From Actinomycetes bacterium (GTDB lineage: Bacteria; Actinomycetota; Acidimicrobiia; Acidimicrobiales; Palsa-688): DNA of 5,224 nt. Position 1 is the stretch's first letter, and the number at the start of each line of letters is the position of its first letter. The position numbers and the translations under genes are program-made. Location: assembly GCA_021798075.1 (NCBI GenBank), contig JAJZYO010000175.1, positions 1 through 5,224 on the forward strand. The letters run 5' to 3'. The notes beneath the pieces are model-generated. The model was given only the letters and a program-made list of their open reading frames with translations. It did not search any database and was not told the origin of the DNA. Shown piece after piece: positions 1-5,224 of this stretch.

Positions 1-356
1 GCCGGGCGCTCCTTCCCCTGCTCGCTGCCTTCCGCGCCACGGTCCGGGTGTACGACCCATGGCTGCCGGCCAGCGTCCTCGAGGAGGCCGGGGCGGTCCC
101 CTCTGGGCTGGCCGAGCTGCTCGCCGCTATCGACGTGTGGCCCGAGGAGCCCGTCCCCTCCGACCACCGGGCGCGAGAGCTCGACGGCGTGGTGCTGTCC
201 GCCCACCGGGCCGGCGGCATCCCCGAAGCTTTCTACGAGATAGGTCGCATGGTCCTCGACGACCTCACCCTGATCGCTGGAGGGCTCCCGCCAGTACGCA
301 TGCAAATCGCCTCCCGTGAACTCGTCGGGCGCTACCGCAACCGCCCCGCCGGCTAG
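1..356 (+). pseudogene. D-2-hydroxyacid dehydrogenase, 3' part, with internal in-frame deletion
   Basis: This is the C-terminal part of an NAD(P)-dependent D-2-hydroxyacid dehydrogenase (glycerate/phosphoglycerate dehydrogenase superfamily). The 5' end lies outside the window, and the visible frame starts at base 3 and gives 117 residues. The end of the first Rossmann beta-strand is visible (VRVYDPWLP, from residue 14), then the helix ending in LAELLAA. The sequence then jumps directly to IDVWPEEP and continues into VVLSAHRAGGIPEAFYEIG, the conserved C-terminal segment with the catalytic His. In the family, about 60 residues normally separate these points: the second half of the NAD-binding domain, including the NxSRGxxVD motif with the catalytic Arg. 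These are missing, with the junction near base 128/129. The Glu of the EEP motif and the His remain. The frame is intact and ends with TAG, so it could make a shortened protein, but NAD binding and catalysis should be lost. An assembly collapse is an alternative. Family identification is firm; the pseudogene call is less so. Confidence 0.7.
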
Positions 357-407
357 CCCCGAAGGGAGCGGGCGGCGCCCGTTCGAGGCCATGAGCCGGG
401 TCCCGGT

Positions 408-414
408 GAGGTGA
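408..414 (+). promoter_or_regulatory. Shine-Dalgarno site deciding the HAD gene start
   Basis: GAGGTGA pairs with the 3' end of 16S rRNA and stands 5 nt before the GTG at 420. The in-frame GTG at 411 lies inside this site and has no usable ribosome binding site of its own, so 420 is preferred. Confidence 0.55.
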
Positions 415-419
415 GCACC

Positions 420-1058
420 GTGAAGGTCCTCAGCTGCCGCGGGGTGTTATTCGACTGCGATGGCGTCCTGGTCGACTCGGACGAGAGCGTCGCCTCGGCC
501 TGGGGCCGCTGGGCCCGCCGGCTCGGTCTGGACGTCGAGATGGTGCAAGGGCTGGTGCACGGCCGCCGGTCCGCGGACACGGTGGCGATGCTCGTCCCTC
601 GGGAGCGCCAAGCCGAGGAACTGGCTCGGATCAACCGCTACGAGATCGAAGACGCCGGCAGCGTGCGCGCTATCGGCGGCGCCCTGGCTTTGCTCCAATC
701 GATCCCGGCCCCTCAGTGGGCCGTAGTGACTTCGGGCCGTGCAGAGCTGGCGCTCGCCCGGTTGCGCGCCGCCGGCCTACCTCGCCCGGCGGTGCTGGTC
801 GGTGCCGAAGACGTGAGCCGAGGCAAGCCCGACCCCGAGGGTTACAGGCTGGCAGCCGAGAGCCTGGGCGTGCCACCGGCCGAGGCGGTAGTGCTCGAGG
901 ATGCCGCGGTTGGCGTCCATGCCGCCCGGGCGGCCGGCGTGGGCGCCGTCGTCGGGGTGGGCGAGCGAGCTGCTGCGGGCGGCGCCGACGTCGTCGTAGC
1001 CGACTTACGCCCCCTCCGGTGGGAAGATGGGCATCTCTGGGTGAGGGGGACAGTTTGA
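420..1058 (+). CDS. HAD-superfamily hydrolase, sugar-phosphate phosphatase-like
   Basis: This is a cytosolic Mg2+-dependent phosphohydrolase of the HAD superfamily with a helical C1 cap, closest in pattern to the beta-phosphoglucomutase / 2-deoxyglucose-6-phosphatase / glycerol-3-phosphatase group. All four HAD motifs are visible in 212 residues. Motif I is FDCDGVLVDSD, with nucleophile D12 and acid/base D14. Motif II is VVTSGR with T104. Motif III is K136 in RGKPDPEGY. Motif IV is E160-D161 in VLEDAAVGVHAA. The cap carries the HGRRSADTV signature (about residues 47-55) of sugar-phosphate phosphatases. Length is normal for the family and nothing is missing. The substrate cannot be read from sequence. 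The gene follows the dehydrogenase remnant by 63 nt on the same strand, so co-transcription is possible. It ends 3 nt from the stop of the convergent SRPBCC gene. An alternative start is GTG 411, three residues longer. Confidence 0.9.
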   Translation: MKVLSCRGVLFDCDGVLVDSDESVASAWGRWARRLGLDVEMVQGLVHGRRSADTVAMLVPRERQAEELARINRYEIEDAGSVRAIGGALALLQSIPAPQWAVVTSGRAELALARLRAAGLPRPAVLVGAEDVSRGKPDPEGYRLAAESLGVPPAEAVVLEDAAVGVHAARAAGVGAVVGVGERAAAGGADVVVADLRPLRWEDGHLWVRGTV

Positions 1059-1061
1059 CGG

Positions 1062-1577
1062 TCAGAGCGTGACGTCGCCGGCTTCGTCCGTCGACTCCAG
1101 GGTCGCGGCCAGCCTGACCAGGAAAGAACGCACGGTCGACTCGGCCACGCGGTGCAGGACGGCACGGTCCAGGCGCCGGCCCAGTTCCCCGAGCGGCGCC
1201 ACGTAGGAAGCCGACAGGATGACACGGCACTCGGAGGGGCCGATCGGGGCGAACTCGAGGTCGCCGTCGAGCACTGGGAAAAGCCCAGGGAACTGCACGG
1301 CCTCCCACCTGATAGAGACGGCGAGGCCTGCTCCTCGCTCGCGACAGGCACCGAGGGCCACGCGCACGTCGCGGGAGATCCGCCCCGAGGCCCAGGACGG
1401 CCCGATCCTGACGAGCAGTTCGTGGGCGTCCTGGCCCGCGGCCGAAGCAAGAGGTTCGAGCCGGCTCCCATCGCCGTGGCACCAGTCCTCGGCCACCTCG
1501 ATGGGTCGTCCCACATCGACGAAGTCGTGAACGAAAAGCGCCCTTTCCTTCTCGCCCGCAACCCCCGTCTCGCCCAT
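1062..1577 (-). CDS. Predicted SRPBCC/START-fold protein
   Basis: The product of 171 residues resembles the SRPBCC (polyketide cyclase/dehydrase, START-like) helix-grip fold. It opens with a FVHDFVDVGRPIEVAEDW segment (residues 15-32), as in SRPBCC proteins where a short strand precedes the phrase 'rPievv..fl'. A strand-rich middle follows (about 86-125, including VSIRWEAVQFPGLFPVLDGDLEFAPIG), and then a long C-terminal helix (about 131-162) of the kind that closes over the ligand pocket. No catalytic residues are predicted and the ligand is unknown. I chose the ATG at 1577. A longer frame opens at GTG 1664, adding 29 residues, but it has no good ribosome binding site and would run through a DosR-like box and a -10-like hexamer. 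With the 1577 start, the message would have only about 2-3 nt of leader. The fold assignment is by pattern only and is moderately sure. Confidence 0.7.
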   Translation of the reverse strand: MGETGVAGEKERALFVHDFVDVGRPIEVAEDWCHGDGSRLEPLASAAGQDAHELLVRIGPSWASGRISRDVRVALGACRERGAGLAVSIRWEAVQFPGLFPVLDGDLEFAPIGPSECRVILSASYVAPLGELGRRLDRAVLHRVAESTVRSFLVRLAATLESTDEAGDVTL

Positions 1578-1586
1578 CGCGAGGGC

Positions 1587-1592
1587 AGGGTA
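1587..1592 (-). promoter_or_regulatory. Candidate -10 hexamer for the SRPBCC gene
   Basis: On the minus strand TACCCT (a TAnnnT hexamer) lies 22 nt downstream of the DosR-like box ending at 1615. It predicts a transcript start near 1580, almost at the ATG at 1577, which would be a leaderless or near-leaderless mRNA, common in actinobacteria. There is no recognisable -35, as expected at an activator-dependent promoter. Confidence 0.4.
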
Positions 1593-1614
1593 CGTCGCAG
1601 CGGCGCCCGCCTGG

Positions 1615-1630
1615 TAGGGCCGAAAGGCCC
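1615..1630 (-). promoter_or_regulatory. DosR/DevR-like operator, copy 2, facing the SRPBCC gene
   Basis: Read on the minus strand, the 16-mer is GGGCCTTTCGGCCCTA. It differs from the box at 1714-1729 (GGGACTTTCGGCCCTA) at one base. The DosR consensus core known from mycobacteria is GGGACTWWAGTCCC. This copy matches 11 of 14 positions. Its GGGCC and GGCCC arms also make it a perfect 5-bp inverted repeat around TTTC. Its centre lies about 43 bp upstream of the predicted transcript start, the usual place for a DosR proximal site. Confidence 0.5.
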
Positions 1631-1709
1631 AACCACCTGGGGGAAAAGCCCGCGCTTCGACCACGCTCTTTCGAGCACCAAGCCGGTAGCATCCTCAGAG
1701 GCTGTCTGG

Positions 1710-1731
1710 CCTAGGGACTTTCGGCCCTAGG
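1710..1731 (+). promoter_or_regulatory. DosR/DevR-like operator, copy 1, facing the zinc-ribbon gene
   Basis: The element is an inverted repeat with 7-bp arms, CCTAGGG and CCCTAGG, around ACTTTCGG. Its core GGGACTTTCGGCCC matches 12 of 14 positions of the mycobacterial DosR core consensus GGGACTWWAGTCCC. The centre lies about 44 bp upstream of the predicted start of the leader RNA at 1765, where a response-regulator activator would contact RNA polymerase. No sensor kinase or regulator gene is in this window, so the regulator's identity rests on motif similarity. Confidence 0.55.
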
Positions 1732-1752
1732 GCCGAGGCCGTGGGCCGCTGG

Positions 1753-1758
1753 TATTTT
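1753..1758 (+). promoter_or_regulatory. Candidate -10 hexamer for the leader RNA and zinc-ribbon gene
   Basis: TATTTT sits in the only A/T-rich patch of this region, 23 nt after the end of the DosR-like box at 1729. It predicts a start at about 1765, which is exactly the first base of the 13-bp outer helix of the leader. No good -35 is visible. Confidence 0.45.
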
Positions 1759-1764
1759 TAACTC

Positions 1765-1880
1765 GGCACTCTGGTGCATGCCAGACGGCACGTTCGACCG
1801 GGGTCGTGCGCCGCTGGTGAAGTTACCCGGTCGGCGTCGGGTGGTGTGCCTCGTCTGTCGGCGGGGCGCACCAGAGTGCC
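1765..1880 (+). promoter_or_regulatory. Long structured 5' leader RNA (unclassified)
   Basis: Three helices nest within 116 nt. P1 is a perfect 13-bp pairing of 1765-1777 (GGCACTCTGGTGC) with 1868-1880. P2 is 10 bp with a 2-nt bulge, pairing 1782-1791 (CAGACGGCAC) with 1846-1849 and 1852-1857. P3 is a perfect 8-bp pairing of 1795-1802 (CGACCGGG) with 1826-1833, closing a 23-nt loop. The ribosome binding site of the next gene begins 8 nt after P1. The class is not one I recognise: no cobalamin, TPP, c-di-GMP, fluoride, glycine or SAM signature was found. It could be a cis-regulatory leader, a processed small RNA, or an RNA-stabilising cap. A 116-bp element with terminal inverted repeats is a less likely alternative, as no target duplication is visible. 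Confidence 0.5.
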
Positions 1881-1888
1881 TTTGGCAA

Positions 1889-1896
1889 AGAGGTGA
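1889..1896 (+). promoter_or_regulatory. Shine-Dalgarno site for the zinc-ribbon gene
   Basis: AGAGGTGA lies 7 nt before the ATG at 1904. This decides the start against the in-frame ATG at 1778, which lies inside the structured leader and has no ribosome binding site. Confidence 0.7.
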
Positions 1897-1903
1897 GCTG
1901 GTC

Positions 1904-2239
1904 ATGAAGCTAGCCGCACCGATCAGATGCAGGCACTGTGGCCGAGTGGTTGTGTCACCGGACGAACCCGAGTTCTACTCGTGCCACTTCACCGTTACAG
2001 ACCCGCACATGGACAGGTGGTCTTGTGGTTCGTGCATCACCTTCGAAGAGAAGCGTGACATCGTCCTCGAGCTCGAGGGCCCCTCGCTCGAGGTCATCGA
2101 CCTGGCCGAGGTGACGCCCGAGGACATATACGCAGCCGCCAGAGAGGCCGGGCTGGCGAAACAAGAGGTCCTGCTCTTGCACCAGTTCGTCAATATCTCA
2201 TGGCGGGCTCAGAGTATGGCGGTAGGCCGGAAACGCTGA
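1904..2239 (+). CDS. Small zinc-ribbon protein of unknown function
   Basis: I do not recognise this 111-residue protein. Two zinc-knuckle pairs are visible, C9-R-H-C12 and C41-G-S-C44, with a fifth cysteine at C27, so one structural zinc site is likely. The rest (about residues 46-105) is acidic, then predicted helical, with no signal peptide or membrane segment and a basic C-terminus (GRKR). There is no obvious enzyme motif. A role in nucleic-acid or protein binding is typical of small zinc ribbons but is not shown here. The gene is monocistronic in the window: a DosR-like box, a -10, and a long structured leader precede it, and it ends 75 nt from the convergent Trp-rich gene. The open frame runs upstream without a stop to ATG 1778 (153 residues), and that extension contains another CLVC motif. 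The start at 1904 is preferred for its ribosome binding site. Confidence 0.75.
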   Translation: MKLAAPIRCRHCGRVVVSPDEPEFYSCHFTVTDPHMDRWSCGSCITFEEKRDIVLELEGPSLEVIDLAEVTPEDIYAAAREAGLAKQEVLLLHQFVNISWRAQSMAVGRKR

Positions 2240-2314
2240 CCGCACGAACGGTCGTTGGACAGGGCCAGCTCAGGGTACGACCCGGCCCCGACCCAGCGCT
2301 TGGAGGCGAAGCGC

Positions 2315-2833
2315 CTACTGCTGCTTGGCACGGTGGGGCTGGTGCAGAGCTCTCTCGACGGCCGCCACCCACTGGGCTGGCCACCACGCGACCACTTCGG
2401 AACTCCTCGCCAAGTCCAGTTCGAGAGGCACGAGCACCTCGCGTTGCAGCCGGGCGAGCGAACCCGAAGAGCGGGCCTCTCGAAGTACTTCCCCTGCCAA
2501 GTAGGTACGAGCCCGGCGCCACCTCCTCTCGCCCAGGCCTGGGGCGGCCGAGCGCCTCAGCTCAGCTTGAAGATCTTCCTCACTCCCGTGGGCCAGGAGG
2601 TTGGTCCAGGTCCACGCCGGCACCGAGGTGACGCCACTGCCGAAACGTTCGGCCAGGCGACCCGACAAGAAGGCCTCGCAGTCCGCCGAAAGCTCCTGCC
2701 CGGCACGCCGTAGGCGCCGGCGCCACCTGAGGCCGCCCAGCCGGCCGGCAGGCGTGAGGAGGACGCGCTCGAAGAAGCGGTTCTCGTCTGCCCACACGCT
2801 GAGCCAATTAGGCACCCACGTCGTCAACCACAT
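2315..2833 (-). CDS. Trp-rich conserved-looking protein of unknown function
   Basis: I do not recognise the family. The 172-residue product has 11 tryptophans (W2, 6, 10, 14, 37, 74, 76, 105, 150, 151, 155) and many arginines, and contains a distinctive PAWTWTNLLAHGSEEDL segment (residues 72-88). Secondary structure looks mostly helical. No signal peptide, membrane span, metal site or nucleotide-binding motif is visible. Coding potential is good: third codon positions are strongly G/C while first positions vary, and the frame is open for its whole length. The ATG at 2833 is preceded by GGGGGGTG at 7 nt spacing. The gene follows the ferredoxin by 43 nt on the same strand, so the two are probably co-transcribed, and a partnership with that ferredoxin is possible but unproven. 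It converges on the zinc-ribbon gene. A 5-bp hairpin at 2304-2316 overlaps its stop but lacks a T tract. Confidence 0.65.
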   Translation of the reverse strand: MWLTTWVPNWLSVWADENRFFERVLLTPAGRLGGLRWRRRLRRAGQELSADCEAFLSGRLAERFGSGVTSVPAWTWTNLLAHGSEEDLQAELRRSAAPGLGERRWRRARTYLAGEVLREARSSGSLARLQREVLVPLELDLARSSEVVAWWPAQWVAAVERALHQPHRAKQQ

Positions 2834-2876
2834 ATGCCGACACCCCCCAAAATCCTTATCCGTCCCTGCTTTACAT

Positions 2877-3104
2877 TCAGAGCTTCACGTAAATGCACTC
2901 GCCGGCGCACTGCGCCTGCGCATCGAGCACGTCTGACTCGAGCTCACCCGAGACGAGAAAGGCGCCCGGCTCCCCGTCCACTGTCGCATGCCGGTCCACG
3001 CGGACGTGGGCAAGACCGTCGTCGCGCATCTCGAACACCGCCGGGCACAGCTCCTCGCAGAGGCCGTCCCCGGTGCAGTACTCGTGCTCGATCCAGACCT
3101 TCAC
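2877..3104 (-). CDS. Single-cluster ferredoxin (Asp-ligand type)
   Basis: This is a 75-residue soluble electron carrier of the single-cluster [3Fe-4S]/[4Fe-4S] ferredoxin family. The cluster motif is C10-x2-D13-x2-C16-x3-C20-P, with the last ligand C66 in QCAGEC. Asp at the second position is as in Pyrococcus furiosus ferredoxin (CIGDAICASLCPDVFEM), whose Asp ligates a [4Fe-4S] cluster that readily converts to [3Fe-4S]. The last ligand is followed by Ala instead of the usual Pro, and C70 is an extra cysteine in a GECI ending common in actinobacterial ferredoxins. The GTG start is supported by AGGAGG 8 nt upstream. It is the first gene of a probable two-gene unit with the Trp-rich protein. Possible partners are the hydrogenase encoded further right or a cytochrome P450 elsewhere; the window does not decide. 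Confidence 0.9.
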   Translation of the reverse strand: MKVWIEHEYCTGDGLCEELCPAVFEMRDDGLAHVRVDRHATVDGEPGAFLVSGELESDVLDAQAQCAGECIYVKL

Positions 3105-3112
3105 TTCCCTTG

Positions 3113-3118
3113 CCTCCT
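3113..3118 (-). promoter_or_regulatory. Shine-Dalgarno site of the ferredoxin gene
   Basis: On the minus strand this reads AGGAGG, the full core, 8 nt before the GTG at 3104. It is the strongest ribosome binding site in the window and suggests high expression. Confidence 0.75.
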
Positions 3119-3187
3119 AACTTCGGCCCCCGTCCCGGCAGGCCTCACTTACCTTCTAGCGGCAGACGCCCGGGTGGCTTTAGGGCA

Positions 3188-3212
3188 ATTGGTCCCCCTT
3201 TCCTGGCCCAAT
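3188..3212. promoter_or_regulatory. Imperfect inverted repeat in the ferredoxin/baeRF divergent region
   Basis: Arms ATTGGTCC (3188-3195) and GGCCCAAT (3205-3212) pair at 7 of 8 positions around a 9-nt spacer. It lies in the 269-bp spacer between the divergent ferredoxin and baeRF starts and might bind a regulator of either gene. It does not fit the DosR box spacing. Confidence 0.3.
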
Positions 3213-3332
3213 GGCCTACGCGAGCGGAGCGCGCCCGAAAGGAGCGACACGCGGCTTTCGTCCCACCGGGCCTCCTCCACCTGGGCTGCACCAGCCCTGC
3301 ACACGGCCGTCATGGGCCTGCCGTCGGGTGGG

Positions 3333-3338
3333 TATATA
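3333..3338 (+). promoter_or_regulatory. Candidate -10 hexamer for the baeRF gene
   Basis: TATATA is an isolated A/T-rich hexamer in a GC-rich spacer, 41 bp before the ATG at 3374. It predicts a start near 3345 and a short leader of about 29 nt. No clear -35 or DosR-like box stands at the spacing seen in the other two promoters. Confidence 0.4.
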
Positions 3339-3373
3339 TGGCCTGAGTGGACGAACCCGGAGAGGAGCGGTCC

Positions 3374-4666
3374 ATGGCTACTTGGCATTGTCCCGTTTGT
3401 GGGCTGAACTTTGTCTTTCACTCCGAGCTGGACTGGCACATCCGTGAAGCTCACTGCATGAAACGCACGGCCGGCCTCGCCGGTCAGCTGGAGAGGGAAG
3501 CCGTGCTCAGCTGGTCTTCGCTGCGCCAGCTACAAGCGGTGAGTGTTGGGCCGTCGGTGTCGTTGTTCCTCTGGACGACCCCAGCAGCCGTCATGACGGC
3601 TCACGACGCGACGAACCTGCACCGTCTTGCCTCTCAGGCTCGCGAACGGCTGGCGCACGAGCTGAAGGGCCAGGCGCTCGAGCACATGGAGACCCGCCTC
3701 AGCGAAACCGTGCGCGCCGCCGAGAGCGGCCCGACCGATCACGGCCTCGCCCTTTTTGTGAGCGCGGCTGAGACCGCTGTCGTGCCCTTGCCCTTCTCGC
3801 CTCGCGAGAGGGTGGCCATCAACCCGAGGTTTGCCACCCGCGACCTCCTCGAGTCCCTGGAGGCTTTCCCTCCCTACCGTGCCCTCGTGCTGCGAGGCCC
3901 TGGTTTCAGGCTCCTCGAAGGCAGGGCGCAGCGCCTCTCCGAGGTCCGTGACTGGCAGGTGCCCAACCCCTCGCTCTGGCGAGCACGGCGTGACGACTCG
4001 GCGCTGTACGCCAGCTGTTGGACGCCGCGCCAGCGGCGCTTGGCCGCTTTCGAGTCGGCAGACCGGGCCATCGGTGAGAGGGTCGCCATCGTCGGGCGGC
4101 TGCCTCTCGTCCTCCTGGGCCGCAAGGGCCTGATGGCCAAGTACCGGAGGCGCTCGCCCCACACGTCCTCGGTGATCGGGCAGGTACCCGTCTGGGGCGC
4201 CATGCTGTCGAGGGCCGACGTGGCCGAGCAAGCCGCGCCGCTCGTCACGGCCTGGCGGCAAGCGCACACGGCGCAGTACCTGGAGGCCCTCCACGAGGCG
4301 GACCGCCAAGGCCACGTCGTCTGGGGGTTGCAGCCGGTCTGGGACGCGGTGCGCGCGGGCCAGGTGCAGTGGCTCTGGGTCGAGCGGGACTACTGGGAGC
4401 CGGGACGGCTCGGCGACAGGGGCACGCGGCTGCTGGCCGCGCCCGACCTCGAGGCGCCCGGGGTGACAGAAGACATCGTGGACCTAGTCATGGAGCGTGC
4501 CGCCCTGGCCGGCGCCCACGTCGAGATCGTCGAGCGGCTGGGGCACGGCCGAGCTGGAGACCGCATAGCCGCTCAGCTCGGGGCGCCTGCCGGTGCCGGC
4601 GAGCGACCCCAACCTGGCGAAGCTGTGGCCGGCCAACCAGCCGCCGGCAGCGCGGCTGCGGCCTGA
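3374..4666 (+). CDS. C2H2 zinc finger fused to a baeRF (VLRF1/eRF1-like) domain
   Basis: This 430-residue protein begins with a classical C2H2 zinc finger: C6-x2-C9-x12-H22-x4-H27, with the hydrophobic core F13 and L19 in canonical positions (C-x2-C-x3-F-x5-L-x2-H-x4-H). The body matches the bacterial archaeo-eukaryotic release-factor-like (baeRF, VLRF1-related) pattern. SVSLFLWT (61-68) is the first strand. DHGLALFVSAAETAVVPLP (122-140), then INPRFATRDLLESL and YRALVLRGPGFRLLEG (168-183), form the core. DIVDLVMERAALAGAHVEIVERLGHGRAGDRIAAQL (367-402) is the eRF1 domain-3-like end. Relatives act at ribosomes: eukaryotic Vms1/ANKZF1 releases stalled peptidyl-tRNA, and mycobacterial Rv2629 is a dormancy protein. 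No GGQ or GSQ catalytic triplet was found, so hydrolase activity is uncertain. The Ala/Gly/Pro-rich tail (403-430) looks unstructured. The start at 3374 follows GAGGAG at 6 nt; a GTG at 3347 has no such site. The stop lies 1 nt from the hypA stop. Confidence 0.82.
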   Translation: MATWHCPVCGLNFVFHSELDWHIREAHCMKRTAGLAGQLEREAVLSWSSLRQLQAVSVGPSVSLFLWTTPAAVMTAHDATNLHRLASQARERLAHELKGQALEHMETRLSETVRAAESGPTDHGLALFVSAAETAVVPLPFSPRERVAINPRFATRDLLESLEAFPPYRALVLRGPGFRLLEGRAQRLSEVRDWQVPNPSLWRARRDDSALYASCWTPRQRRLAAFESADRAIGERVAIVGRLPLVLLGRKGLMAKYRRRSPHTSSVIGQVPVWGAMLSRADVAEQAAPLVTAWRQAHTAQYLEALHEADRQGHVVWGLQPVWDAVRAGQVQWLWVERDYWEPGRLGDRGTRLLAAPDLEAPGVTEDIVDLVMERAALAGAHVEIVERLGHGRAGDRIAAQLGAPAGAGERPQPGEAVAGQPAAGSAAAA

Positions 4667-4667
4667 A

Positions 4668-5024
4668 CTAGCCGGGCCCGGCGTCGCCGGCGTAGCCGAG
4701 CCCCAGGAGCTCGAGGCCGCCGGACAATTCCGTTGGGCGGCCACAACCCGGGCAGATACCGATGTGGCCGGCGACATTGTCCCCTGGCAGTTCGCCGGCC
4801 CACCCGCAAGAACACTCGAGGTGAGCCGGGACCACCTCGAGGTCGAAGGTGGCATTTTCGAGTTCCCCGCCAGGGTATTGCTTGGCCGCGACCGGGAAAA
4901 CAGCGGCTAGCTCCTCTGCGTCGATGCCGGCGCTGCAGCGCGCCCGGACAGCCAGCACGCGCCGGCCTCGGCAAAGCTCGGCGCACTTGGCCACCAGGCC
5001 TTCGGCCAGAGAGAGCTCGTGCAA
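4668..5024 (-). CDS. hypA: [NiFe] hydrogenase nickel chaperone HypA
   Basis: HypA delivers nickel, with HypB, to the large subunit of [NiFe] hydrogenase during cytosolic maturation. The 118-residue product has the family's usual length. It starts MHELSLAEGLV, where H2 of the MHE motif is the nickel ligand. The zinc domain carries C71-S-C73 and C91-P-G-C94. The first knuckle is C-x-C instead of the common C-x2-C, and the second is normal. The H2 requirement fixes the start at the TTG at 5024, 10 nt after the hydrogenase large-subunit stop. No Shine-Dalgarno sequence is visible there, so translation is probably coupled to the upstream gene. Its place just behind the hydrogenase large subunit points to a dedicated chaperone for that enzyme. 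Its 3' end converges on the baeRF gene, with one base between the two stop codons. Confidence 0.93.
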   Translation of the reverse strand: MHELSLAEGLVAKCAELCRGRRVLAVRARCSAGIDAEELAAVFPVAAKQYPGGELENATFDLEVVPAHLECSCGWAGELPGDNVAGHIGICPGCGRPTELSGGLELLGLGYAGDAGPG

Positions 5025-5034
5025 CGTACGACAG

Positions 5035-5224
5035 CTACTGCTCGGCTGAGCGGCTCACCCGGCGGAGCAGCTCGCCGCCCGGCCCGAACACGTCGAGCAC
5101 CAACGGCATCTGGCCGATGGCGTGCGTGGAACAGGAGAGGCACGGGTCGTACGCCCTGATCACCGCCTCCACCCGGTTGAGCGCGCCCTCGCGCACCTGG
5201 TCCCCCTTTATGTAGTGCTGGGCG
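5035..5224 (-). CDS. [NiFe] hydrogenase large subunit, C-terminal end (partial)
   Basis: Only the last 62 codons are in the window; the gene continues beyond its right edge. The C-terminal nickel motif DPCLSCSTH is present, and its two cysteines are ligands of the NiFe site. It is preceded by GALNRVEAVIRAY, as in large subunits. DPCxSCxTH followed by xxGxMPL is typical of cytoplasmic group 3 hydrogenases, which couple to NAD(P), F420 or other soluble carriers, rather than of membrane uptake enzymes (DPCxxCxVH). The 28 residues after the His (AIGQMPL to SAEQ) are the extension that a HypD/HycI-type endopeptidase normally removes after nickel insertion. No such protease is in the window. The subgroup (3b Hyh-like versus others) cannot be fixed from this fragment. 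It forms an operon with hypA. Confidence 0.93.
   Translation of the reverse strand, partial: AQHYIKGDQVREGALNRVEAVIRAYDPCLSCSTHAIGQMPLVLDVFGPGGELLRRVSRSAEQ

Follow-up and report, generated by a model that had tools for sequence, protein, structure and literature searches.

A Balon relative with an N-terminal classical C2H2 zinc finger in a clade of Acidimicrobiales-type genomes

The finger gene and its Balon-like product

We analyzed a 5,224-nucleotide stretch of DNA from an Actinomycetes bacterium of the Acidimicrobiales (contig JAJZYO010000175.1; hereafter the window), in which a gene at 3374-4666 on the forward strand encodes a 430-residue protein with a classical C2H2 zinc finger, a type widespread in animals and plants, ahead of a body related to Balon, a recently described bacterial hibernation factor. 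The protein, for which 49 relatives were gathered, starts with MATWHCPVCGLNFVFHSELDWHIREAHC. The translation of 3374-4666 reads C6-x2-C9-x3-F13-x5-L19-x2-H22-x4-H27, and the exact C-x2-C-x3-F-x5-L-x2-H-x4-H finger that a first-pass annotation had placed at the N-terminus is thus present, with C6, C9, H22 and H27 as ligands. This pattern is expected about 1e-7 times over the length of the protein, given its own amino-acid composition. Translation, Pfam, alignment and modelling placed the finger at residues 5-27 (3386-3454); the alignment placed a linker at residues 28-45 (3455-3508), followed by the Balon-like body at residues 46-404 (3509-4585) with its N, middle and C domains, all on the forward strand. 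A Shine-Dalgarno-like GGAGAGGAG lies at 3359-3367 on the same strand, and a purine-rich stretch is also found ahead of the equivalent ATG in the related loci L002-L006. The finger pattern was present in 40/50 proteins (query counted), and the 10 proteins without it start late: P0035 at residue 11, P0002 at residue 29 and the others still later. P0002, a database entry of 402 residues, begins at M29 and therefore lacks the finger; this start is most likely a miscall.

The Pfam zf-C2H2 profile matched residues 5-27 with 16.8 bits (E 0.0092), which located the finger where it had been proposed but stayed under the curated cut-off of 25.2 bits; the same profile was matched at E <= 1 by 39 of the 49 aligned relatives. 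Among the alignment rows with a letter at the position concerned, the ligands were invariant (C6 and C9 40/40, H22 and H27 41/41), the core positions were F13 in 39/41 and L19 in 41/41, and several other finger residues were as well preserved (F15 and S17 40/41; E18, W21 and R24 41/41). Column entropy was lowest in the finger (0.31 for residues 5-27), 0.48 for residues 28-41 and at least 1.0 in the rest of the body, and the mean frequency of the top residue was 0.938 in the finger versus 0.915 in linker residues 28-41. These figures may carry a search bias, the relatives having been gathered through shared words. The nonsynonymous divergence (dN) of six fetched loci nevertheless agrees with them: dN was 0.02-0.09 for codons 1-41 versus 0.16-0.35 for codons 42-96 in 5/7 pairs; in several pairs the synonymous sites were saturated or gave no defined value. 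The two remaining pairs were close and uninformative (0.021 vs 0.025; 0 vs 0.029). Divergent finger-Balon proteins with 39-41% identity, obtained through whole genomes, retain the four ligands and little other finger sequence (CPICPLIFQFRTEVEYHLRNDH), and W21 is not preserved in the most divergent of the copies.

When residues 1-60 were modelled separately, they superposed on classical C2H2 fingers with a beta-beta-alpha fold, and the closest solved fingers, by sequence as well as by structure, were DNA-binding ones. Judged from its sequence, the C2H2 finger is real and of the classical type, and zinc binding is predicted. The C2H2 chains of archaeal 70S ribosomes (9qf4/9qf6 Bk, 6skg Bo) are likewise single fingers and superposed at 0.6-0.7 Å over 25 residues, chain 9qf5_Bk more loosely (3.4 Å over 32 residues). 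They differ in having been modelled in ribosomes and in being unfused to a hibernation factor, and their sequence match is weak (E 0.63).

The body scored 62.6 bits with Pfam baeRF_family3 (PF18845; cut-off 31.5 bits, E 7.5e-17), a family matched at E <= 1 by 47/49 relatives. A PDB profile search matched Balon of Psychrobacter urativorans at E 1.8e-27, and the five best PDB matches in a Foldseek search with the whole body were all Balon. These results confirmed the proposed baeRF body behind the finger and specified it as baeRF family 3, which is Balon, the closest family by profile and structure. The NCBIfam equivalog NF052287, built on P. urativorans Balon, gave 145.6 bits against a cut-off of 330; by this cut-off, the protein is a relative of P. 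urativorans Balon and not its equivalog. Like the Balon proteins (AOC03_06830 of P. urativorans, MSMEG_1130, Rv2629), it has a three-domain eRF1-like body with neither a GGQ nor a NIKS motif. GGQ occurred somewhere in 2/50 proteins; the variants GGSQ/GxxQ were not searched by pattern. In contrast to Balon, the protein carries an N-terminal C2H2 finger, with about 38 residues preceding Balon residue 1.

Differences were also seen within the body. P. urativorans Balon has an HP motif at the decoding centre, whereas the HP dipeptide is absent here and the aligned loop T68-M74 (3575-3595) reads TTPAAVM. HP was absent as well from all 11 fingerless class relatives aligned, 5 of which retain the Pro, so that the motif does not define the wider family; the idea that the finger replaces the HP motif was weakened by the same 11/11. 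The place of the GGQ loop is occupied, in the middle domain, by a loop and the beginning of a helix (DWQVPNPS...CWTPRQRR, residues 193-222, 3950-4039), in which W194 is found in 49/49 relatives. Compared with a view to the bL27 trap of Balon, this loop proved about 13-20 residues shorter than its P. urativorans counterpart, and it is even shorter in the fingerless relatives L019 and L024. At the start of the helix that follows the short loop, a Gln-Arg-Arg at residues 220-222 (4031-4039) is conserved (Q220 44/49, R221 48/49, R222 41/49). In the C domain, residues 338-356 (4385-4441) align without a large gap to the EF-Tu-binding hairpin region of Balon, and the model has strands at 344-347 and 352-355.

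The neighbours of the finger gene lie on the opposite strand: a single 4Fe-4S ferredoxin upstream (2877-3104), and HypA (4668-5024) and the end of the NiFe hydrogenase large subunit gene (5035-5224) downstream. Hydrogenase genes were also found downstream in L002 and L003, with HoxU above the cut-off in L003, while L004 instead has upstream a universal stress protein, two pyridoxamine-oxidase-like proteins and a GNAT/CoA-ligase protein; L005 and L006 had neither the hydrogenase nor the L004-type neighbours. Such neighbours would suit a life under anaerobic conditions or stress, but none is in an operon with the finger gene. Elsewhere in the window, a 153-residue protein encoded at 1778-2239 on the forward strand contains two C-x2-C pairs resembling a zinc ribbon (weak Pfam matches, E 0.025), and L003 has a similar gene at 3682-4134. 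Compared with L001, the window differed by 13 mismatches over 251-5224, and for this reason we regard it as a close strain of the L001 genome. The comparison of window 1-360 with L001 2454-2983 (identical through window 126) showed that the window lacks 174 bases which L001 carries within a gene for a 2-hydroxyacid dehydrogenase. The missing piece apparently lay between a pair of short direct repeats, which indicates a deletion or an assembly fault.

Distribution and origin of the fusion

Relatives of the protein were present in 20 of the 395 genomes of a class sample, and the finger in three of these (G001, G005, G006); the other 17 loci showed no finger, though the contig of one (G125) ends before the N-terminus is reached. 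In a phylum sample of 396 genomes, baeRF_family3 exceeded the cut-off in 83, and the finger profile gave a full-strength match in G001 only. An all-frame scan of the 30 other top-scoring baeRF family 3 loci of the phylum found the classical C2H2 pattern in none (0/30; one locus starts at a contig end and one has masked bases). Within the family of G001 (32 genomes), 12 had a relative and 10 a finger match; of the two without a match, one (G765) is truncated at the edge of its contig and the other (G759) encodes a fingerless body. Across the order (288 genomes), the finger was matched at E <= 1e-4 in 11 genomes. Five of these have a finger-Balon gene (G001, G005, G006, G770 and G879, of which G879 does not belong to the 32-genome family), and the other six have stand-alone finger genes (G820 with two copies, G884, G868, G249, G878 and G201). 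A search with residues 1-45 recovered the finger-Balon family only (38/43 candidates), and a protein search with P0049 gave 3 matches.

In a body tree of 20 rows from which G759 was left out, the eight finger rows formed one group (support 100/99). With G759, G879, G767 and G769 added (24 rows), 11 finger rows and G759 formed a clade with support 100/100, although the order of forks inside these 12 rows was unsettled. The finger label requires two changes on this tree, most simply one gain and one loss. The fusion of finger and Balon is therefore confined, in the genomes examined, to one clade of Acidimicrobiales-type genomes; the co-occurrence survey that the first-pass annotation had proposed thus found the two domains together in this clade only. 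Because the fusion is found in one clade only, of the two origins left open there, convergence is supported and an ancient one is not.

A pair of genes for a response regulator and a histidine kinase adjoins the divergent Balon relatives in 6/6 loci: L135 (G879), L136 (G770), L137 (G769), L141 (G767), L144 (G759), which is fingerless, and L074, where G005 has a second, broken copy. Response_reg and Trans_reg_C domains were recognized in the regulators, which share 67-89% identity among five loci, and HAMP, HisKA and HATPase_c in the kinases. An orthologous pair lies beside the stand-alone finger genes in 2/6 genomes of the order (G820, G249); it is missing from the 7 loci, some of them short, that carry stand-alone fingers in other parts of the phylum. 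The window-type copies lost or never had this two-component neighbourhood. That finger and Balon genes both adjoin the orthologous two-component system suggests that they became fused: the probable source of the finger is a free-standing gene for a finger microprotein beside that system, which would have become joined to the Balon gene. Stand-alone Actinomycetota C2H2 proteins have the same type of finger, e.g. CPKCELSFSYKTELDWHAREDH in G820 and CPVCALKFRFSSELDQHLKLEH in G619, but are short and have no Balon body.

Further observations concern these stand-alone genes and the two-component loci. Small C2H2 proteins of 52-67 residues (CPVC.L.FR...EL..HL...HP.F) occur in several actinobacterial genomes (L068, L070, L071, L073), and no NCBIfam family was found for the three small C2H2 proteins tested. 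In G820, the two stand-alone finger genes (L132, 7073 and 10515, forward strand) are about 3.4 kb apart, one of them beside a response regulator. The second finger-Balon copy of G005 (L074, ~7210-7563, reverse strand; L033), beside a two-component system, is broken by a stop after about 114 matched residues, and the intact copy lies elsewhere in the genome. Following the two-component system of L135, a trypsin-like/PDZ protease was identified with Pfam (5917-7071), and L137 has a gene similar in length and position (696-1853). The combination of two-component system and protease recalls the MprAB-PepD arrangement of mycobacteria.

Proposed function and competing explanations

According to the excerpted text of PMC10901736, Balon occupies the A site: the N domain is near the decoding centre, ~10 Å from the messenger RNA (mRNA) channel, the peptidyl-transferase centre is reached by the middle domain and EF-Tu is contacted by the C domain, and RaiA can be bound at the same time. 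By analogy, A-site binding and a part in hibernation are most likely for the present protein; of the release and hibernation roles suggested by the first-pass annotation, hibernation is the likelier and release the less so. We favor, with a probability of about 0.55, a Balon-type ribosome hibernation factor whose finger is an extra docking arm on the ribosome. The three-domain body would enter a vacant or stalled ribosomal A site without hydrolyzing peptidyl-tRNA and would protect the ribosome under stress, as Balon does. The finger would hang by its conserved 18-residue linker from the N domain, which faces the decoding centre in Balon, and would most likely dock on ribosomal RNA or a ribosomal protein. 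In the usual C2H2 helix numbering, the outward positions that contact DNA are F15, S17, E18 and W21 here. These are nearly invariant and unusual for DNA contacts, which favors a protein or RNA partner. Anchoring on the ribosome is thus the leading candidate for the role of the finger.

Several observations weigh against this proposal. The separate 60-residue model is weak (mean predicted local distance difference test (pLDDT) 65.2, predicted template modelling score (pTM) 0.41; Foldseek E-values from 0.21 up), and the full-length model is poor in the finger region, with pLDDT <50 for residues 18-41. The HP motif of Balon is missing, although its absence is uninformative about the finger because fingerless relatives are also without it. 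No operon links the finger gene to stress genes, since the window neighbours are on the other strand. The finger is dispensable, since one relative (G759) lacks it while having both body and regulator. The two-component system of the divergent copies was near none of the window-type copies (0/8 loci) and was likewise not found nearby in 4/6 stand-alone finger genomes of the order.

The finger might instead bind DNA or a regulator, as a regulatory module of the adjoining OmpR-type two-component system that was joined to hibernation by fusion. The orthologous response regulator and histidine kinase common to stand-alone fingers and divergent finger-Balon genes agree with this, as does the DNA-binding nature of the nearest solved fingers. 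However, single C2H2 fingers seldom bind DNA specifically, the set F15, S17, E18 and W21 is unusual at DNA-contact positions, and the window-type copies have parted from this system (0/8 loci); we regard this explanation as unlikely, if the best of the alternatives. Slightly less credible is a zinc or redox sensor that toggles the hibernation factor with zinc supply or oxidation. It would account for four invariant ligands, and the excerpted text of PMC13418864 links zinc status to ribosome hibernation in mycobacteria. A bare sensor would need less, however, than the conservation seen, which extends well past the ligands and core (e.g. E18, W21 and R24 each 41/41).

The finger could also lie at the mRNA-channel side of the 30S A site and do part of the work of HPF/RaiA. 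The HPF profile PF02482 was found in 0/6 finger genomes and in 1/32 genomes of the G001 family, versus 233/395 of the class sample and, counted by eye, 14/17 class genomes with a fingerless relative (missing in G026, G198 and G360). A family-wide loss of HPF/RaiA, a nearly universal hibernation factor, is possible. PMC10901736 places Balon ~10 Å away from this channel and has it bound alongside RaiA. Against this, 19/20 family genomes without any Balon relative of this kind also lack HPF, which weakened the idea that finger and HPF loss go together; the family is without HPF with or without the finger gene, and we therefore draw no causal link. Ribosomal protein L10 was found in 4/6 finger genomes, so that two of the six are incomplete, the counts exclude G879, and the loss of HPF is essentially one evolutionary event. 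We consider a partial substitute for HPF/RaiA doubtful.

An equally doubtful extension would combine these elements into a compound hibernation factor: in a bacterial family from which HPF/RaiA was lost, Balon would have been fused with a microprotein finger connected to a two-component system for stress, the finger would reach a second ribosomal site (the mRNA channel or the 30S head), and one protein would block both the A site and the channel and may answer to zinc.

The VLRF1-like body proposed in the first-pass annotation did not hold, as family, profile and structure all point to Balon. A bacterial VLRF1/Vms1 homologue, i.e. a release factor for peptidyl-tRNA whose finger is ancestral, would explain the domain order, which is that of eukaryotic Vms1/ANKZF1 (VLRF-1 clade; PMC6514570, in excerpt), a C2H2 finger preceding an eRF1-superfamily domain. 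The conserved Gln-Arg-Arg (Q220 44/49, R221 48/49) that opens the helix after the loop would also fit. In addition to the absence of GGQ, no VLRF1-named family was among the 22 Pfam families matched by the 49 members (E <= 1); Vms1 was not among the 50 structure matches listed, an absence that excludes nothing. The excerpts of PMC6514570 describe baeRF-1 and VLRF-1 as separate clades, each of which entered bacteria separately, and the Vms1 finger as Rei1-like and added within eukaryotes. Vms1 further differs in its ankyrin repeats, VIM and active GxxQ loop (PMC6514570, PMC5989216, both in excerpt), and its eRF1-like domain is without the eRF1 N domain (PMC5989216), which is kept here. On the Balon matches and this N domain we reject membership in VLRF1/Vms1, and we consider such a homologue very improbable. 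The least probable explanation, a start-site artefact in which M29 is the true start and the finger is never translated, has in its favor the single entry P0002 and is rejected because codons 1-41 are constrained at the ligand and protein level, together with the database starts (finger annotated in 40/50 proteins) and the Shine-Dalgarno sequence ahead of ATG 3374.

Meaning of the fusion

The protein represents a new architecture in a known family, a Balon with a classical zinc finger; the excerpts of the open-licence PMC papers searched mention no zinc finger on Balon. Literature searches on C2H2 fingers in bacteria and on C2H2 proteins of archaeal ribosomes yielded nothing directly usable. 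A likely donor of the finger was traced to a stand-alone finger gene. With HPF/RaiA all but absent from the G001 family of bacteria, hibernation may depend more heavily on Balon there. If the finger is a sensor or regulator, hibernation would be tied to zinc or to an envelope-type two-component system. If the compound factor described above were true, it would be a convergent bacterial counterpart of the Vms1 finger, which serves as an anchor on the large ribosomal subunit of eukaryotes. If, as we favor, the finger docks on the ribosome, fingers that anchor eRF1-type factors to the ribosome would have been acquired on two occasions, once in Vms1 of eukaryotes and once in Balon of bacteria.
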